The notes under the pieces are model-generated. The model did no database searches, was not told the origin of the DNA, and was given only the letters and a program-made list of their open reading frames with translations. A DNA stretch of 64,000 bases from NCBI RefSeq assembly GCF_000148645.1, contig NC_014541.1, forward strand, positions 2,317,139 through 2,381,138. Direction: 5' to 3'. Shown piece by piece: positions 5,655 through 19,320 of this stretch. Numbering within the stretch: position 1 is the first letter of the stretch; every line of letters starts with the position of its first letter. A program made the translations under genes and the position numbers. The DNA is from Ferrimonas balearica DSM 9799 (lineage in GTDB: Bacteria > Pseudomonadota > Gammaproteobacteria > Enterobacterales > Shewanellaceae).

Positions 5655-6935
5655 ATGACCGTATTGATTAAGAACGTCTCGCTGTTTGATGGAATCAACG
5701 ACACGCTGCGCACGGACTGCTGCATCCAGATTGATAACGGGCTGATCACCGCCATCAGCGCCCAGCCCAACCCGGACTGCCGCTATGAGCAGGTGATCGA
5801 TGCCGCCGGATTCACCGTGATCCCCGGCTTAATCGACGCCCATACCCACATCGCGTTTTCTGACACCTTCCAGGCACTGGACCGAATGACCGCTGAAGAG
5901 GTCGCGGTGCGCTCCACCGTCATCGCCCGGGAGATGATTGAACGTGGCTTTACCACGGTGCGGGATGTGGGCAGCAACTGCTATGGCCTGAAGCAGAGTA
6001 TCGATGCCGGCTTCGTGCCCGGGCCACGGATCTACCCCAGCTACGGGGCGCTGTCCCAGACCTGTGGCCACGCTGACTACCGGCAGAACCGGGCCCAGCG
6101 CTCAGACTTCAACCGGGGACTGGAAGATTCCAGCATGATGCGTCAGGGCCACCTGATACTGGCCGACGGCGTACCCCAGTGCCTGAAACGCACGCGGGAC
6201 CAGATCTTTATGGGCGCCTCACAGATCAAGATCTTCGGCGGTGGCGGGGCCTCTTCACTGTTCGATCCGCTGGACACCATCCAATACACCCGGGAGGAGT
6301 TGCGCGCCATTGTCGAGACGGTCAGTAACTACGGCTCTTACGTCTGCAGCCACATCCATGCGGGGCCAGCGATGAAAATCGCCATCGAAGAGGGGGTCAA
6401 ATCCCTGGAACACGCCACCTTTATGGACGATGAGATCGCCCGCCAGTGCCTGGACCACGAGGTGTGGATGGTGCCGCAATACGCCACTGCGGAGAAGATC
6501 GCCCAACGCCAGATCCCGCTGGACAGCGAGATCCTGTACCAGAAGACTGAACGGGTGGGTAAAGGACTGCTGCGACAGGCGGAACTGGTGGAGAAATACG
6601 GCCTCAAGTGCGCCTTTGGTACCGATTTGATAGGCACACCCGAAGTGCATGCCCGGCAGAACGACGAGTTCTCCGCCCGTAAGCGCTTCTTCGGCTCCTT
6701 CCGCGGCCTGAAGCAGGCCACCTCGGAGGCGGGGCAACTGCTCAAGCTCTCTGGCCTGCTGGACCCCTATGCTGAAGGTGCCTTGGGGGTGCTCTGCGAC
6801 GGAGCCTATGCCGACCTGCTGCTGGTGGCCGGCAACCCGGTGGCGGACCTGGATATCCTGGCCGACGCTGACAACATCAAAATGGTGATCAAGGGCGGCA
6901 ATGTCATTAAAGACATTCGTCCAGCACAGTTCTGA
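5655..6935 (+). CDS. Metal-dependent amidohydrolase (imidazolonepropionase/prolidase-like)
   Basis: A 426-residue amidohydrolase-superfamily enzyme. DAHTH supplies the first metal ligands (His63 and His65). Later come the QIKIFGGGG lysine strand, SHIHAG, SLEHATFMD and AFGTDLIGTPEVHA, the last giving the catalytic aspartate. No signal peptide is seen, so it is cytoplasmic. The ATG at 5655 begins the typical MTVLIKNVSLFDG strand; a longer frame from 5589 adds 22 residues that do not fit the fold. Close members hydrolyse Xaa-Pro or N-acyl amino acids or cyclic amides. With the upstream decarboxylase it may degrade one amino-acid derivative, which is inference. Confidence 0.85.
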   Translation: MTVLIKNVSLFDGINDTLRTDCCIQIDNGLITAISAQPNPDCRYEQVIDAAGFTVIPGLIDAHTHIAFSDTFQALDRMTAEEVAVRSTVIAREMIERGFTTVRDVGSNCYGLKQSIDAGFVPGPRIYPSYGALSQTCGHADYRQNRAQRSDFNRGLEDSSMMRQGHLILADGVPQCLKRTRDQIFMGASQIKIFGGGGASSLFDPLDTIQYTREELRAIVETVSNYGSYVCSHIHAGPAMKIAIEEGVKSLEHATFMDDEIARQCLDHEVWMVPQYATAEKIAQRQIPLDSEILYQKTERVGKGLLRQAELVEKYGLKCAFGTDLIGTPEVHARQNDEFSARKRFFGSFRGLKQATSEAGQLLKLSGLLDPYAEGALGVLCDGAYADLLLVAGNPVADLDILADADNIKMVIKGGNVIKDIRPAQF

Positions 6936-6964
6936 AACCGCCCTCTGACGTGGTTTCACCCTTT

Positions 6965-6992
6965 GCCAGCCGTAACCCCGGCTGGCTTTTTT
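6965..6992 (+). terminator. Rho-independent terminator after the amidohydrolase
   Basis: An 8-bp stem (GCCAGCCG / CGGCTGGC) with a 6-nt loop is followed by six T, 30 bp after the stop codon. Confidence 0.85.
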
Positions 6993-7017
6993 GTATCCGG
7001 CGCCCTGCCCTGTGGCT

Positions 7018-8049
7018 TCACTCCGGCACCGGCGCCGACAGGTAACGCTTGCGGTACTCCCGGGGTGGAAAGCCGGTCAGCCGTTTAAAGGCCCGGGAGA
7101 AATGGGCAATGTTGGCGTAGCCCAACGTCGAAGCGATGTCGGTCAGCGAGTAGCGGGGGTCTTCCATCAACCGACAGGCGGTGGCCAGCACGATGTTCTC
7201 CCGCACCTGGTTAAAGCTGCTGCCGGCTTCCGCCAGCTTGCGCTGCAGCGTCCGCGGGCTGGTATCCAGAATCGTTGCCGCCTCACTAAGGGAAAGCGCT
7301 TGCCGTGACAAATACGGCGTCAGGGCCAGGTACACCGTCTCCAGGTACTGGTGTTCAACCGGCTCCCCCAAGGGATTGGTATCACTAAAACGAGCAGGTA
7401 GGTGAAATGGCTGGCTCAACAGGGCCTCGGACAGTTCCACCGCCGCGACCCGTCTATTGGCGAAGATCCGAGCCTGCGCCACATTTGCTGGTCGCTGGGC
7501 CTCCAGAATGGCCGCCAGCACATCCCCGCTGTCCGACTGAATCGCAATGCCGGAAGGCTGCCACTCGGACTTGCTGGCCAGGCCAACAAACTCAATCAGA
7601 AACAGCACGGAGAAGATCTCCGCCCAGCGATAACCCTCGTTGTGTTCACCGGCCTTGTAGCGGCAGAGCCAGGGCACACGATTGAAGTACTGCAGGTCTA
7701 CCTGTACGGTCGAGGATTCATGACGGAGCGCGGTGCTGAGCTGGATGATCGCCCCGCCGAGGGTAACGGGATTATCCAGCTGACGCATAAGGGGCGGCAG
7801 AACCCGCTCTCGGAGTGTGGTGCGAAGCAATTCGCCGAAATAACGGGGCTCGGCCCGCTCCGCCATCAGCGCCAGCAGGTGCTTGACGGGCGTTTCCGGC
7901 AGATACTCGTGTGAGGCATTCAACAGATCTTCGGGCAGGCCGGCCGCCCGCAACAGCGGATAGATGTCGGTTTCGAACTGCTTTAACAGCCCGACCAGGG
8001 TCTCCGCATGTGCGGTTTTGATAAGGGGTACCAATGGGCCTGACGGCAT
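7018..8049 (-). CDS. AraC/XylS-family transcriptional regulator
   Basis: A 343-residue regulator of the OruR/arabinose-binding type. A long N-terminal ligand domain (residues 1-235, with a YFGELLRTTL and AEIFSVLFLIEF core) precedes two C-terminal helix-turn-helix units. The second unit is seen in SLTDIASTLGYANIAHFSRAFKRLTGFPPREYRKR. The gene faces the decarboxylase and amidohydrolase pair end to end, and these are its most likely targets, though nothing in the sequence proves it. The chosen ATG (MPSGPLV) has a weak ribosome site; homologues in this group commonly start near here. Confidence 0.88.
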   Translation of the reverse strand: MPSGPLVPLIKTAHAETLVGLLKQFETDIYPLLRAAGLPEDLLNASHEYLPETPVKHLLALMAERAEPRYFGELLRTTLRERVLPPLMRQLDNPVTLGGAIIQLSTALRHESSTVQVDLQYFNRVPWLCRYKAGEHNEGYRWAEIFSVLFLIEFVGLASKSEWQPSGIAIQSDSGDVLAAILEAQRPANVAQARIFANRRVAAVELSEALLSQPFHLPARFSDTNPLGEPVEHQYLETVYLALTPYLSRQALSLSEAATILDTSPRTLQRKLAEAGSSFNQVRENIVLATACRLMEDPRYSLTDIASTLGYANIAHFSRAFKRLTGFPPREYRKRYLSAPVPE

Positions 8050-11691: not shown

Positions 11692-12177
11692 ATGTCTCAA
11701 CCCAAAGTCAGTATCATCATGGGTTCTCAGTCCGATTGGGCCACCATGGAAGAAGCCACCAAGCCGCTGGAAGCGCTGGGCGTGGCGTTTGAAACCAAGG
11801 TGGTCTCCGCACACCGTACCCCGGATCGCCTTTACCAGTTCTGCAACGACGCCCATGAGCGTGGCATTCAGGTGATCATCGCCGGTGCCGGTGGCTCTGC
11901 GCACCTGGCGGGCATGGCCGCGGCCATGACCCACCTGCCGGTGGTCGCCGTACCGGTCTCCAGCCGCAACCTGAAAGGGATGGACAGCCTGCTGTCGATG
12001 GTTCAGATGCCCCGCGGTGTTGCAGTGGCCTGTCAGGCCATCGGCGGTGCCGGTGCCTACAACGCGGGCCTGATTGCCGCGCAGATGCTGGCGCTGGGTG
12101 ATGCCGAGCTGACCGAACGCCTGATCGACTGGCGTCGCAGTCAGACCGAATCCGTGGCGGAAGAGGTCGTAAAATGA
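11692..12177 (+). CDS. purE: N5-carboxyaminoimidazole ribonucleotide mutase
   Basis: A 161-residue class I PurE, which moves the carboxylate of N5-CAIR to C4 to make CAIR in de novo purine synthesis. [13 protein letters not shown] (residues 7-19) is the phosphate-binding start, VVSAHRTPD carries the catalytic histidine, and [11 protein letters not shown] and the [20 protein letters not shown] stretch complete the site. It starts 14 bp after the transporter with GGAG, and its stop overlaps the purK start by 4 bp, so it is coupled to purK and cotranscribed with the transporter. Confidence 0.96.
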
Positions 12178-13262
12178 AAATTGGCATCATCGGCTGCGGC
12201 CAGCTGGCACGGATGCTGGCCCTGGCGGGCTGGCCCCGGGGAGTGCAGTTCAGCTTCCTGGCCGGTCCCCAGGAAGATCCGTCACCGGTGATGGGGCTTG
12301 GCACCATCCACCGCCTCCAGGAGGGAGACAGCGCCGAGTCCATCTACCAGGGATTGGGTGAGCCCGACGTCATCACCACCGAGCGTGAGCAGGTGGAAGT
12401 GGCGTTGCTGGCCTCTCTGCAGCCCTTTGCGCCGGTGTTCCCGCAGCCTGAGGCGGTCTCCATCTGCCAACACCGGGCCCGGGAGAAGCAGTTTATCAAT
12501 GACCAGGGCATCGCCACGGCACCGTGGCAGCCGGTCACTCCCCAGACTGACCTGCTGGCCCTGGGCCATGAACTGGGCTGGCCGCTGTTCATCAAAAGCT
12601 GCGAAGACGGCTATGACGGCTACAACCAGTGGCGCATTAATGGCCCAGACGATGCGCTGCCGACGCTGCCGGAAGGCGTCGCCTGCATCGCTGAAGGCGG
12701 TGTGGCGTTTGAACGGGAGCTTTCGCTGGTGGCGGTGCGTGGCCGTGACGGCAAGGTACGCTGTTACCCGCTGACCGAAAACCACCACACCGCAGGCATT
12801 CTTCAGCACTCCCTGGCCCCGGCTCCGGCCCTGGCCGACGGGTTGCAGCAGAAAGCGGAAGCGATGGCTCAGCGCTTGCTGAGCGCGATGAACTACGTTG
12901 GCGTGCTGACCCTGGAGCTGTTCCTGGTGAACGGTGAGTTCAAGATCAATGAGCTGGCACCGCGGGTACACAACAGCGGTCATTGGACTCAGAGTGGCGC
13001 CCTCACCTGCCAGTTTGAGAACCACGTCCGTGCCATCGCCGGATTGCCGCTGGGCCCAACCGATGCGCCTCTGCCGGCTGCCATGGTCAACCTGCTGGGC
13101 GTTGAGCCGCCCAACCCGGTGATCTGTCCTGACGCCAAGCTGCACTGGTACAACAAATCAGTACGCCCGGGCCGCAAAGTGGGTCACCTCAACCTCACCC
13201 ACGCCGACCCGCAACAGCTTTCTCGCCAGGTGTCGGAGTTGGTGGCCATCCTCTACCCCTGA
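12174..13262 (+). CDS. purK: N5-carboxyaminoimidazole ribonucleotide synthase
   Basis: A 362-residue ATP-grasp enzyme that joins ATP, bicarbonate and AIR to give N5-CAIR. The N-terminal [19 protein letters not shown] is the typical PurK opening. The ATP-grasp core follows, with [33 protein letters not shown], and the metal and base segment [15 protein letters not shown]. The [15 protein letters not shown] segment near the C terminus is also characteristic. The start overlaps purE (ATGA). The gene is followed at once by a strong terminator. Its need for bicarbonate gives the upstream transporter a clear rationale. Confidence 0.95.
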
Positions 13263-13270
13263 GCCATTCT

Positions 13271-13294
13271 GGCCGCACCCAACCGGGTGCGGCC
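13271..13294 (+). terminator. Hairpin terminator after purK
   Basis: A perfect 10-bp G+C-rich stem (GGCCGCACCC / GGGTGCGGCC) with a 4-nt loop, followed by ACCCTTTCCC, starts 9 bp after the stop codon. The T tract is weak. Confidence 0.7.
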
Positions 13295-13743
13295 ACCCTT
13301 TCCCGCCTTTGCCACGTGCAGACAAGCTATAAAGCGTCATACCGGATAGCCATGCAGAGCCCGCTCCAAGTCCTCAGGTCAGGGCGCTGCCGAGACAACG
13401 TTTCATACTCACCAGTACCCCTTCCCCCACCGAGCCCCAACTCTGTGGAATAAATCGTCATAGTGCCGCTAGTCGGCCAATGGCCGCAGCGGCGGCAGAG
13501 CCAGTTAGTCACACAGTTGGCGCACTTTCACTGGATGGATTCTCTGTTTCGCCCAAAGGACAGTCGAAAACGACATCTAAGAGATTGATTGAATTGGGAT
13601 CGCTTGGTACGTTTGGCGAACTTTCGCCGGAGTTATTGCGCCTGCAAAGGTGCCTGCAGGCGCAATAAATACACTGTTAACTGGATTGGCGGATTTCCAG
13701 TAATTTGAGGTGGCAAGAGCATTGCCAATACGAAGGGTATTTA
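13295..13743. other. Left flank of the inserted operon
   Basis: About 450 bp without a supported gene. The first 200 bp are backbone-like. From about 13500 the composition falls toward A+T. A short frame at 13480-13668 ends inside the hairpin described separately and has no ribosome site. The insert boundary probably lies in this stretch. Confidence 0.4.
13633..13668. repeat. 14-bp perfect inverted repeat before the inserted operon
   Basis: The arms at 13633-13646 (TTATTGCGCCTGCA) and 13655-13668 (TGCAGGCGCAATAA) are exact reverse complements with an 8-nt loop, 76 bp before the first gene of the PLD operon. It could be a terminator of incoming transcription, an operator, or a recombination or insertion-site relic. 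An AATAAAT run follows the right arm. Confidence 0.7.
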
Positions 13744-15336
13744 GTGTTAAACACAGAATTTTATTCGGGTGCTGTCATACGGCTGGCGACCCTGCAAAAA
13801 AAACGCAATTATGCGGGTCACTTGCTTTTCGCCACCGTGTCCTTGCTCCCTCGCGGTAGACCGCTACCTCCACCGATGGAAGGACTGCATCGGTGCCCCA
13901 TCGGAAAAACCGACGAAACTGTTTTTTTTCGCCGTGTGCTTTTGAGTGTGCAAGAAGCTATTGACTGGTATCGCGCTCTTGGCAGTGGCGATGATAAATC
14001 CCCGATTCCCTCCCGACATGAGGAACGCAATAGCCAATACGATGGGGTCAAGATAGAAATCTCAAAGCTGATCGATGACCCATCCTGGCCGTATCTCGGC
14101 CTGCCGGTTGGGGAAGGGATGTTTGCACATCTTTCTGGACGAAACCATCCGGCGCCCTTCATTGGTAATTCCCCCGCCCGCATCCATCGCCGTTTCGGTA
14201 GTCAGGATGGCTTCGACTTGATGCTAGCTGATAATAAAGCCGTAGACTTTGTTGCAAGACGATTGCATGTTGATCTTAGGCTTTATAGGGAGTACCTCGG
14301 AAGCATTACATTAGTCGCGCCAGATCCTGTGCTAAAACAAATTGATAACTTTATGATTCCAGCCTCTGCTGATAGGGGCGAACGTATTTTCTATCGTTTT
14401 GTTCCTCGTGCAGGGGAATCGTTGGCTGGCCTGAAGATCACCACCTTCGACGAACAAGGCCACCTACTTACAGACTTCAACACGCAGGAAATTCCCGCCA
14501 ATGGCATTTTGGATATTGATAAAGGCGACTGCATAGGCACTTATGGCTATGTTGTGGCTCACCAGCAACATGGCGTTTTGGCCTATAGCCCACCGTCTTC
14601 ATTCCTACGCCAAATGAACTTTTCGATGCATATCGGTCCAGAGGAAAGCAAGAAGGTCAGCGTCCCTACTGGCGAATCAGCCAATTCCCCGCGCATGGAA
14701 TATCTTGCGGCTCAACGTTCAACACTTGCCTCGCAGCACCTCATGGGAGATGGGCCGCGTATACCGAATGTCAACGCCCGCATAGCCAATGCGGCTGCAC
14801 GCCGCGAAAAGATCGCAAACGCGAAGCAATACGGCCAGCGCTGGTTCCCTGACGGATCCCGTGAAGAGGCTATTCGCTTTATTCAGAGTGAACTGAGGCG
14901 CGCCAAGAATAGAGTGATGATTGCTGACCCTTATCTTGCCGGATTGCAATTAGGACAATTTCTGTACGCCGTTAATCCAGAAACCATTTCAGTGACCCTG
15001 CTGAGCTCAGCCCTCGCATTTAAGTCTAAGGGGCAAGGGCTCTCGAAGACCGATGACTTTAGCCAGCGACTCACCCAACTGGAAAAGGACGCCAAGGTAA
15101 CTGCCAAGGCATACGTGCTCCAGTCATCCATCCTGCACGACCGCTTCCTTGTAATAGATGATACCGTCTGGTTCCTTGGCAACTCGCTGAACACTTTGGG
15201 CGACAAGGCATCCCTAATCGTTAAACTTCCCAATCCGGATGAGATCATTGACCAGCTTGAAGATATGCTGAAACAGGCAATATCCTTTGTCGACTATGAG
15301 AAACATCAAACTAAGGATAAGGACGCCGGGTCATGA
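13744..15336 (+). CDS. Protein with C-terminal PLD-like domain, first gene of the candidate defence operon
   Basis: About 530 residues. The GTG at 13744 has GAAGGG six bases upstream, better than the TTG at 13705. The N-terminal 90 residues (AVIRLATLQKKRNYAGHL, then VFFRRVLLSVQEAIDWYRAL) recall the family NCBI names after Vibrio VPA1262, an uncertain recollection. A middle beta-rich region follows. From about residue 375 there is a PLD-like fold: EEAIRFIQSELRRAKNRVMIADPYL, then HDRFLVIDDTVWFLGNSLN at residue 465. This is an HKD motif with Lys replaced by Arg and only one copy. Its stop overlaps the next start (ATGA). G+C and codon use are lower than the neighbours, pointing to transfer. Confidence 0.72.
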   Translation: MLNTEFYSGAVIRLATLQKKRNYAGHLLFATVSLLPRGRPLPPPMEGLHRCPIGKTDETVFFRRVLLSVQEAIDWYRALGSGDDKSPIPSRHEERNSQYDGVKIEISKLIDDPSWPYLGLPVGEGMFAHLSGRNHPAPFIGNSPARIHRRFGSQDGFDLMLADNKAVDFVARRLHVDLRLYREYLGSITLVAPDPVLKQIDNFMIPASADRGERIFYRFVPRAGESLAGLKITTFDEQGHLLTDFNTQEIPANGILDIDKGDCIGTYGYVVAHQQHGVLAYSPPSSFLRQMNFSMHIGPEESKKVSVPTGESANSPRMEYLAAQRSTLASQHLMGDGPRIPNVNARIANAAARREKIANAKQYGQRWFPDGSREEAIRFIQSELRRAKNRVMIADPYLAGLQLGQFLYAVNPETISVTLLSSALAFKSKGQGLSKTDDFSQRLTQLEKDAKVTAKAYVLQSSILHDRFLVIDDTVWFLGNSLNTLGDKASLIVKLPNPDEIIDQLEDMLKQAISFVDYEKHQTKDKDAGS

Positions 15337-15953
15337 AAGGGTTAACTCCAAATATCCCGATTGCCCCAAAGACAGAGCGTCCATTTCCCAATAAAGAAAT
15401 TCTCTGGGGCAGCGAGGGGGGCGGGCAGGCTTGCTTCCCGACATCCGCGGCTGCCTATGAGCGGAAGTATTCTGCTGATCCTGTTCCCTTGCAAAAATTT
15501 GGCAAAGCAGTGTCAGAGGCCCAGGAGAGAGTCTGGATTGTCGACGAATATTTGTTGATACCTGATAGCGGAAAACCGACAAAGCGAATCGAACAAATCC
15601 TATCTTGGTTGCCGTTATGGTTTGCAGCAAGCGATGTTCGCCTGCTGACGAAACAGCATCAAGAAGTCGATGAAAATGACCTGAAGAAATTTCAACAACA
15701 TGCGCAGGCAATTACTAACCAATCGGTAAGGCGTGAGAAGGCGTGCCGCATTGAGATCAGAAAGCATCTCACACGGGATTGCGATTTTGTCCACGACCGC
15801 TTTGCCATCATTGATGACGAACTTTGGCATTTTGGGGGAACAGTGGGCGGGTTTCATTCTAAAGTCAGTGCAGCCAGCCGAGGCTGGCGGGCATCGGATC
15901 ACGGTGCTATCAGTTTCTTTGAGGAGATCTGGAACGCAGGAGAACGAAAATGA
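15333..15953 (+). CDS. Single-motif PLD-like protein, second gene of the operon
   Basis: A 206-residue protein. Near residue 60 a FGKAVSEAQERVWIVDEYL segment resembles the start of a phospholipase D fold (compare AKNRVMIADPYL in the gene before). HDRFAIIDDELWHFGGTVGG begins at residue 154. That is one HKD-like motif with Lys to Arg and a conserved Gly-Gly. PLD enzymes need two such motifs, so a homodimer, or a heterodimer with the upstream protein that carries the matching HDRF-xx-IDD-xx-W motif, is likely. It overlaps both neighbours by 4 bp, so the three genes are translationally coupled. Substrate (nucleic acid or lipid) cannot be told. Confidence 0.72.
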   Translation: MKGLTPNIPIAPKTERPFPNKEILWGSEGGGQACFPTSAAAYERKYSADPVPLQKFGKAVSEAQERVWIVDEYLLIPDSGKPTKRIEQILSWLPLWFAASDVRLLTKQHQEVDENDLKKFQQHAQAITNQSVRREKACRIEIRKHLTRDCDFVHDRFAIIDDELWHFGGTVGGFHSKVSAASRGWRASDHGAISFFEEIWNAGERK

Positions 15954-17932
15954 CGGAACAATGGCCAATAGAGCGTCACGCCGAAACTCGGGAAACCGGT
16001 GAAGATACCTCTTTCAAGACGGCGCGAGATTTCCTCAATCTCTTGAATTTATTTCCTCACGACCAGCACAAAACTTTCAATGACGTCGTAATCTGGATAG
16101 TGGAAAAAAGTGGCGATATTTCTGAGTTGGAACAGCAGTTGGCCCCTGTTGCCGACGAGTTCGAGTCGTCAACTGTTGATAGCCATACTTTGCTGATGAC
16201 GCTCGCTTGCGCCGCAGCATTAGCAAACATGCCCTCGTTGCGAACCTGGGGCAAAGTCAACGCATTCAAATACAACTCATGGGAACTTGAGAATTGGTTG
16301 AGTGAAGCCATGATAGCGTATGCCGAAGTTCATCCCTCAGCATGTGATGCTTATGCCAATCTCGCTAAGGAGGCTTTTTCTGGACTTGAGAGTTTCTCGC
16401 TTCAATCCGAGTCAGAGCGCACCAACGCTGAGCGGATAGGTGCCTGGAACGGTTGGGGCAAACGACAAGGCAAGCTGGAAGAAATATGGTGGGACTTGCG
16501 CGGTTGGCATGGTTTCATGAACTACCAAGAAGAGCTTCCGCTATTCCAGGTTTTCTATAAGTTGGAGCCAGACGAGTTCATTCGCACAATATCCAAATCT
16601 GACAACCCTTATTTAGTTAACGCGTTGTTATTCGTGGCAGGCATAGGTGAATTCTCTCCACGATTCTCTGAGTGGAAACGAATGATTGCCGCAGCACCAG
16701 TTGCTTTTGAACATGATGGTAAGTGGAATGGTTCTGTCCTTGTGCCATTGCTATTGGTTGATGCTCGTAACCAATTGCTACAAGTAAGATCAAGCTTTCA
16801 ATACTTGGACGTCACAACTGTTGACCATGATGAAATAGAACAGGAAATAACCAACACTGCTGAACTCATTGTTGGCACAGTTGCTGAACGGAAGGATGCC
16901 GCAGCTATATTCTCTCGGTGGGCATCATGGTTGATTCGGAAAATATTGGGGCAGAGCGAAAAGGAAATCGCCGATGTGAAGTCTTCGGCGTTTGCCGATA
17001 ATGCCTTGGTCGATGCTATCGGCAGAAAGCTAGGGAATCGCGTGCTACCTCAGTCAGTTCCTGATGACGCGCCTTTATGGGAGGCTTGGTGTTACCGCTG
17101 CGCGTTGGCCTCTTTTGCCTATAACGGGCATATCCAGGTACCTGCTTGGGAAGGTTTTGGAAGTGAATGGCGTCTTTCACCTGAAGACTGGATAGGAGAT
17201 AGAGGACAGTCTTTACGCGAGCACGCCAGCCTTATAACCACCCTAAATAAAGAAATTCCGGGTATCGCTGCAAACTTACTGGCCTATCCAATTGCACAAT
17301 CCACCATTCCTGTTGAGGCGTGGATCCACCTGTGGAATGACGCTATCGTCTTACGTGAAATTGTGGAATTCGGCGATTCGGACTCAGTCGAAGACGAATA
17401 CAGTTCTCGCTATGAGGCTGGGCGTCTGTTGCTCTTGCTCTTCAACATCGGTCTGGCAATCTTTGACCAAAGTTCAGCCCGTAGTTATGACAGTAATTCG
17501 CCTGAAGCTAGATCTCTTGTTAGCCTATTCAAATCTCTCAATTTCGCAGCTAGCGAAATGCGGGAAATCGATAGCACATTAAATCATGAGAAATGGCTTG
17601 TAGTTGCTCAACATTTGACTATCAGAAGAATGATTTGGGAGCCCACTTCTAGCGATGAGAGTTCATCAAGTAATTTTCAGGTTTTCAAAGCCGACGACAA
17701 CCCTACAGTCTCTGAAATTCTTATCGAAGCAAATGGTGATGTAATAAAAATGGTCACTATTTTGCAATCCCTCTTGCTCAATGCTCCAGATTTAAGGTTG
17801 AAAGCTGCACTCAATTCATCATCAATTGATGTGTCCAGTATCGTGCAGTCGATCAGGACTCTGAATGAATACCATCCGAGAAAGTACCCTATTGATGAGG
17901 CTCAACTAAAAAAGCTTAGCGCACTAATATAA
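15950..17932 (+). CDS. Large helical protein of unknown function, third gene of the operon
   Basis: A 660-residue acidic, apparently all-helical soluble protein, rich in Trp and Leu, with no signal peptide, no membrane segment and no nucleotide-binding motif that I can find. Segments such as LEEIWWDLRGWHGFMNYQEELPLF's central WWDLRGWHG, and KAAAIF-like repeats, suggest a helical-repeat scaffold, but I cannot define a repeat unit. It starts with ATGA overlap from the second gene and ends the operon. The G+C content is visibly lower than the surrounding genes. A sensor or scaffold for the two PLD-like partners is a guess. Confidence 0.65.
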   Translation: MTEQWPIERHAETRETGEDTSFKTARDFLNLLNLFPHDQHKTFNDVVIWIVEKSGDISELEQQLAPVADEFESSTVDSHTLLMTLACAAALANMPSLRTWGKVNAFKYNSWELENWLSEAMIAYAEVHPSACDAYANLAKEAFSGLESFSLQSESERTNAERIGAWNGWGKRQGKLEEIWWDLRGWHGFMNYQEELPLFQVFYKLEPDEFIRTISKSDNPYLVNALLFVAGIGEFSPRFSEWKRMIAAAPVAFEHDGKWNGSVLVPLLLVDARNQLLQVRSSFQYLDVTTVDHDEIEQEITNTAELIVGTVAERKDAAAIFSRWASWLIRKILGQSEKEIADVKSSAFADNALVDAIGRKLGNRVLPQSVPDDAPLWEAWCYRCALASFAYNGHIQVPAWEGFGSEWRLSPEDWIGDRGQSLREHASLITTLNKEIPGIAANLLAYPIAQSTIPVEAWIHLWNDAIVLREIVEFGDSDSVEDEYSSRYEAGRLLLLLFNIGLAIFDQSSARSYDSNSPEARSLVSLFKSLNFAASEMREIDSTLNHEKWLVVAQHLTIRRMIWEPTSSDESSSSNFQVFKADDNPTVSEILIEANGDVIKMVTILQSLLLNAPDLRLKAALNSSSIDVSSIVQSIRTLNEYHPRKYPIDEAQLKKLSALI

Positions 17933-18336: not shown

Positions 18337-19320
18337 ATGATTGACGCGTTATTCACACAGGAAGTGCAGCTGGGCATCGACATTGCCACCAGTGCCACCA
18401 TTATTGGTGCCATGCTCTCCTGGTTTATCGAAAGCCGCCGACAGGCGAAGAAAAGTCGCGAGCGCGGCATCAGCGATCAGGCCCGTGCCTCCTCGTTAAG
18501 CAAAGTGCAGAGCATCCTGTACGAGTTCGAAAACAGCTTCAGTGATTTGATCGCCTCCGCCCAGACCTTCGAACGCCCCATCGACAACCGCAGTGGTGAC
18601 CGTCTAGGTGAGTACCTGCGCCACCACCCGGAGTTTATCGACGTCAGCTCCGAGCGCCTTGGCAACTTCTATCAGGAGGTGGACCGCTTCTACGAGTCAA
18701 TCCAGAAGCGCCGTTACTCCCTGTTGCCGGTGCTGGACTCTCTGCACAGCGGCGACAAGTTTATGTACGACCTCAAGCAGGACATTCAGCAGGTGGGCGA
18801 GCTCTACAACAAGCTCAACTCCGGCTGGAGCCAACTGCTGCGTGAGTTCCACGCCGTGTACAAAGAGTATTACCCGATTGTTCTGGCGGACGAGAACCAC
18901 AACAAGTCCCAGGAGGAGATGGTTGGCCTGTTGCTGGAGCGGGAGGATTACATCCGCGCCATGCTGTCGATTCTGCTCGATAAGAGCTACTGGACCTGGG
19001 TGGAAAGCTTTGTGCCCAAAGAGATGGAAGAAGCCTACAAAACCATGCTGGAGACCAATGAACGCGATGCCGCCGCCCTGAACCGGGCCGCCGTCAACTT
19101 CACCGGCCACCTGCTGAAAGATCCCTACCGTTTGTTTGCCCAGATCCTGCGCCGTACCTCCGTTGAGGTGCAGACCGCCCGCATCGAGTGCAAGGACATC
19201 CTGATCAAGCTGAGCGCCCTGACCCACAAGCTGCTCAGCAACCAGGAGGTGAATCTCGACGACCTGATCAAGAAGTACGAAACCGAAGACTACCTCGGTA
19301 AAGAACGCTTTATTCACTGA
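18337..19320 (+). CDS. Membrane-anchored coiled-coil protein of unknown function
   Basis: A 327-residue protein. One N-terminal membrane segment (residues 13-31, LGIDIATSATIIGAMLSWF) is followed by a basic ESRRQAKKSRERG stretch and a long helical cytoplasmic region of about 290 residues with coiled-coil character (YQEVDRFYESIQKRRYSLL, LKQDIQQVGELYNKLNSG, SQEEMVGLLLEREDY). The start has AAGGAAA upstream. It is monocistronic and ends in a 12-bp bidirectional terminator. Composition is like the backbone, so it is not part of the insert. Function unknown; architecture alone would suit a sensor or scaffold. Confidence 0.75.
   Translation: MIDALFTQEVQLGIDIATSATIIGAMLSWFIESRRQAKKSRERGISDQARASSLSKVQSILYEFENSFSDLIASAQTFERPIDNRSGDRLGEYLRHHPEFIDVSSERLGNFYQEVDRFYESIQKRRYSLLPVLDSLHSGDKFMYDLKQDIQQVGELYNKLNSGWSQLLREFHAVYKEYYPIVLADENHNKSQEEMVGLLLEREDYIRAMLSILLDKSYWTWVESFVPKEMEEAYKTMLETNERDAAALNRAAVNFTGHLLKDPYRLFAQILRRTSVEVQTARIECKDILIKLSALTHKLLSNQEVNLDDLIKKYETEDYLGKERFIH

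Follow-up and report, generated by a model that had tools for sequence, protein, structure and literature searches.

The window analysed here, 64,000 nucleotides of Ferrimonas balearica DSM 9799 (contig NC_014541.1, positions 2,317,139 to 2,381,138), carries on its forward strand three overlapping genes, A, B and C, that, to judge from sequence comparison, are probably a defence system with an effector of the phospholipase D (PLD) type. The triad is a real and recurrent three-gene unit, found together more than chance would allow, and it is described nowhere within the literature searched (titles and abstract starts as listed, with supplements and most subscription journals outside the scope). 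I regard it as evenly balanced whether this is a horizontally spread anti-phage system in which A and B would form an asymmetric PLD nuclease while the N-terminus of A and C would sense infection.

Gene A (13744..15336, 530 residues, GTG start) encodes a VPA1262_N_dom protein, gene B (15333..15953) a 206-residue PLD-like paralogue of the C-terminal domain of A, and gene C (15950..17932) a 660-residue, predicted all-helical protein. The A/B and B/C junctions are each a 4-base ATGA overlap, so that the operon a first-pass annotation had read from the letters alone is real in its coordinates and at both junctions. The most likely start of A is GTG 13744 rather than TTG 13705, which would give 543 residues, because DNA homology with the copy in Sulfuriferula (L002) begins at window position 13740. 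This alignment, in two pieces at 75-79% identity, spans 13740-17916, and therefore the part common to both hosts is the three open reading frames (ORFs). The same annotation had placed the operon in a low-G+C insert, and the composition agrees: G+C is 0.507 in A, 0.498 in B and 0.464 in C against 0.641 in purK, and G+C at third codon positions (GC3) is 0.52, 0.50 and 0.46 against 0.79. Moreover, the congeners G371 and G375 lose synteny with the window between about 13265 and about 19376, the corresponding gap in both being about 1 kb.

The triad is kept as a unit well beyond Ferrimonas. A followed by B and C homologues recurs in other bacteria, plasmids and viral contigs, with A at 24-80% identity, and all three genes have open frames in 10 loci (the window, L002, L004, L005, L014, L016, L038, L039, L058 and L059). 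Four more copies are partial: the C frame of L003 is short and close to the end of its contig, L006 has A split in two and a C that breaks off, B is split in two in L015, and in L042 the contig ends 3' of B. A sample of 398 genomes from the phylum holds full-length A in three and B in the same three, with six more matches to the PLD part of A only, and across the homologue searches, these genomes included, B was never met away from A. Of 96 genomes of the host family, one carries A, VPA1262_N_dom is above cut-off in 2 of 369 genomes of the class sample, and the congener G376 carries a fused form in place of the triad. ATGA or GTGA overlaps occur at 7 of 12 A/B and 7 of 11 B/C junctions measured. 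B is absent from six fused proteins (L031, L043-L047) and from L017 and L032, where A stands with a large partner. In a tree of 21 A proteins (L006 omitted, its A being interrupted), a branch with 100/100 support parts seven B-less rows, the six fused proteins and L032, from 14 others, namely 13 with B plus L017, although long branches leave the placement of L017, L032 and L042 unsure. The closest row to the Ferrimonas A is that of Sulfuriferula, and transfer between distant hosts is therefore likely. On the Methylorubrum plasmid L017 (9944-14354), A and the large partner are accompanied by a 260-residue protein without an HDR motif.

A consists of a beta-rich N-terminal region (residues ~1-350) and a C-terminal PLD domain (~360-525). 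The suspected kinship of its N-terminus with the VPA1262 family held up, with 396.9 bits against VPA1262_N_dom (NF040700; curated cut-off 80) over residues 72-524 of the 543-residue frame; the full-length model VPA1262_fam (NF040699) gives 49.7 bits, below its curated cut-off of 325. A thus shares with this family, exemplified by VPA1262 of the Vibrio island VPaI-6, the N-terminal domain and an occurrence on islands and plasmids. VPA1262 appears in the available text of PMC1464126 as a polymerase chain reaction marker gene of that island, and the literature search, with most subscription journals outside its scope, found no published function for the family. The fused VPA1262-type proteins match A by profile (E 1.4e-07) but, unlike the three-gene triad, are single chains of ~1100 residues without B, and hhalign detects no relation between their tail and C.

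Structure modelling gives the C-terminal domain of A a PLD fold, and both the model and its fold neighbours bear out what had been proposed for this protein. The neighbours include the nucleases SauUSI, NgoAVII R and Nuc/NucT, as well as domains of MITD1, FAM83 and TrmB and the phosphatidylserine synthases and lipases of the PLD superfamily. The choice between nuclease and lipase had been left open; the structural model favours a nuclease, a lipase being less likely, as nucleases rank best among the structural neighbours. That the effector is a membrane-damaging phospholipase triggered by infection, as the matches to lipases and phosphatidylserine synthases might suggest, is very improbable, since the best-ranked structures are nucleases, and nothing like a transmembrane or signal segment stood out when A, B and C were read by eye, without a predictor.

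A and B are paralogues by sequence comparison, and their alignment contains the motif that had been noticed at the end of both: an HKD variant with Arg for Lys, HDRFLVIDDTVWFLGNSLN in A (15136..15192, H465-N483) and HDRFAIIDDELWHFGGTVGG...AASRGW in B (15792..15887, H154-W185). B matches PLDc_2 at E 0.0012, which is below cut-off. Of the 15 A proteins tabulated (L006 omitted, as in the tree), 14 have HDR, and so do all 13 B proteins (L015 omitted); Arg replaces Lys in every one of these A and B proteins, and none has the canonical HxKx4D. The GxSxN part of the motif is retained in A as GNSLN and is GxTxGG in B, where the block HDRFA..D.E.WHFG.T.GG and the following SRGW are invariant in all 13 proteins and SxN is lost. 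PLD folds can serve without catalysis as binding modules, as in MITD1, FAM83 and TrmB, and A and B might likewise recognise rather than cut. The presence of these three among the neighbours of A and the uniform change of Lys to Arg are consistent with such dead folds, but I consider this unlikely, given that H, R and D are invariant in B, that H is nearly so in A, and that several nucleases are among the top VIA matches. The same Lys-to-Arg variant is found in a defence protein, BrxL-HKD of BREX (bacteriophage exclusion), where, in the available text of PMC12839542, its authors judge it likely active; there, unlike in the triad, it lies in a single protein with the domain fused to BrxL.

According to the available text of PMC7913695, two HxK motifs come together in a single active site in both SauUSI and BfiI, and the two histidines of BfiI are not equivalent; that text also says that the same mechanism remains unverified for SauUSI. 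These enzymes, NgoAVII R and Nuc/NucT resemble A in their PLD fold (BfiI by that source rather than as a fold match) and have an HxK-type motif, whereas the triad has Arg for Lys, apparently splits the site over two paralogous genes, and contains no helicase/ATPase or methylase within the three-gene unit. The PLD-type domains of A and B may thus have been duplicated and then specialised, each contributing one half-site, HDR with SxN from A and HDR with the TxGG/SRGW variant from B, to a predicted asymmetric A:B phosphodiesterase that would cut nucleic acid. Since the two histidines of BfiI are unequal, a split between paralogues would fix that asymmetry. Alternatively, A alone may be the nuclease, as an A:A homodimer of the kind that the B-less fused VPA1262 proteins would need, with B as a pseudo-enzyme, a regulator or an adaptor to C. 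The B-less relatives (the six fused proteins, L017 and L032) do keep HDR on one chain, and the loss of SxN from B would fit a pseudo-enzyme, but a pure regulator need not keep HDR, which is more constant in B than in A, and L042 has lost the histidine of A itself; I therefore rate this as possible but doubtful.

C, as first described, is large, helical and unrecognised: it is predicted to be an all-helical superhelix (predicted local distance difference test score, pLDDT, 77), has no family match in profile searches and its structure model has no significant match. The B-carrying subclades have homologous C proteins (E 8.1e-15). The model would suit a sensor or scaffold, and in the proposed asymmetric system the N-terminal domain of A and the superhelix of C would bind a phage component and restrain the nuclease until infection.

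Several copies lie in defence settings. On the viral contig L038 the triad and one ATPase-like gene sit between P2-type portal and replication nickase genes (PHROGs), a site described as a defence hotspot by Rousset et al. in the available text of PMC9122126. In L058 the triad has LmuA/LmuB on one side and GajA/GajB on the other, a transposase-like ORF separating LmuB from A. Among the neighbours on plasmids are PD-T4-5 and a TrlF ATPase in L014, AbiJ in L015 and, around L017, which lacks B, a TIR effector, a subtilase, SIR2 and Dsr2. The fused relative L045 is two genes from a PifA homologue, and L006 adjoins transposase-like ORFs. At E<=1e-20, 50 neighbour proteins on four plasmids match 18 PADLOC families and 79 control proteins encoded on the opposite side of these plasmids match nine, a moderate contrast in raw counts of families matched, which are not counts of distinct proteins. 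The comparison omitted cut genes, three very short control genes and two transposases (L066:19572-20632, which held stops, and L016:3701-4518, which does not divide into whole codons). Occurrence on plasmids and viral contigs might also suggest a non-immune maintenance or exclusion function for plasmids or prophages; this is quite unlikely, as the triad is also chromosomal (the window, L002, L004 and L005) and lies near several unrelated defence systems.

Known systems overlap with the triad in part. Searches against defence-system models gave matches for A and left C unmatched. The PLD region of A matches the PADLOC candidate PDC-S05 (E 8.1e-12), over model positions 162-300 of 306 only, the last half, and B matches it weakly (E 8.2e-05); PDC-S05 is not known to have a C-like partner. 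That region also weakly matches NsnC (E 1.2e-4) of the Menshen system, NsnABC, likewise of three genes. Membership of Menshen was rejected: B and C match no Nsn model at E<=1, which leaves the triad without NsnA and NsnB partners.

Several observations weigh against an asymmetric A:B defence nuclease. The structure model of A is moderate (pLDDT 67), and B lacks the Asn and Ser of the canonical GSxN half-site. In L042, the one exception among the A proteins (6149-7543), FYDR replaces HDR and GNQLN replaces GNSLN beside an intact B motif, so that the system seems to work without the A histidine or this copy is decaying. The control proteins include SngB and SngC, that is, Shango-type matches, their other matches being helicase/ATPase-like components of other systems, and several of the neighbour matches come from L017, one of the four plasmids and B-less. 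Finally, the expected placement by defence genes held for L038, L058, L014 and L015 but not for the five chromosomal loci (the window and L002-L005), which, read from their translations, lie among ordinary-looking genes rather than in a defence island. If it is not decaying, L042 offers a natural test of which half-site matters.

A repeat of ~165 bp (13519..13679, forward strand) ends in GTTA 64 bp upstream of A and contains, at 13633-13668, a hairpin whose 14-bp stem is perfect. Five of 14 Ferrimonas genomes carry the repeat, and with the window's own there are 11 copies at E 5.5e-11 or better, the others being L078 (= L091), L080-L083, L092-L094, L096 and L097, most with the GTTA end; L083, L093 and L097 match over ~120 bp only and then differ. 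Across all ten non-window copies G+C falls, from 0.49-0.64 in the 1.5 kb before to 0.38-0.50 in the 1.5 kb after (least in L083, 0.49 to 0.47), and different foreign-looking genes follow. Of ten proteins encoded downstream of nine of these copies (L094 omitted), five have PADLOC matches at E<=0.001 in an uncontrolled count, including a type IV restriction HNH enzyme, an HNH effector like those of CBASS (cyclic oligonucleotide-based antiphage signalling systems) and, weakly, AbiV (Pfam HEPN_AbiV E 5.4e-29). The repeat has no match in plasmids, and comparison of the Ferrimonas copies found no right end; it may be a landing site, perhaps for defence cassettes, or one end of a mobile unit. An integron attC site was rejected, the ends being unpaired in the fold and an integron integrase above cut-off being absent from three of the five carrier genomes. 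The integrase TIGR02249 is above its curated cut-off in 10 of the 14 Ferrimonas genomes (G369-G381; one with an inner stop) and absent above it from the window's own. Tentatively, and as plausible rather than probable, the triad may be an immune system with a nuclease whose asymmetry is hard-wired by the A/B duplication, with C as infection sensor, moving as an exact three-ORF cassette via phage hotspots, plasmids and these Ferrimonas sites that collect defence genes.

The segment absent from the congeners holds, besides the three-gene operon, a fourth, host-like ORF (18337-19320, 327 residues, GC3 0.79), which the proposed insert had not included; its N-terminus reads as apparently hydrophobic, and profile searches give no family above cut-off. 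In Methylobacter (L005, 6017-12222, A at 63% identity) as in the window (11692-17932) the triad lies directly 3' of purE-purK, those of L005 being identified by reading, hinting from two distant genera that insertion is favoured at the end of purK.

If the proposed system is real, the VPA1262 family, so far named but uncharacterised, would gain a function, and a PLD-based defence system free of an ATPase would be added to those known. The histidine pair of a PLD site, whose members are unequal in the BfiI reaction, would also lie on separate genes, where each could be mutated singly.
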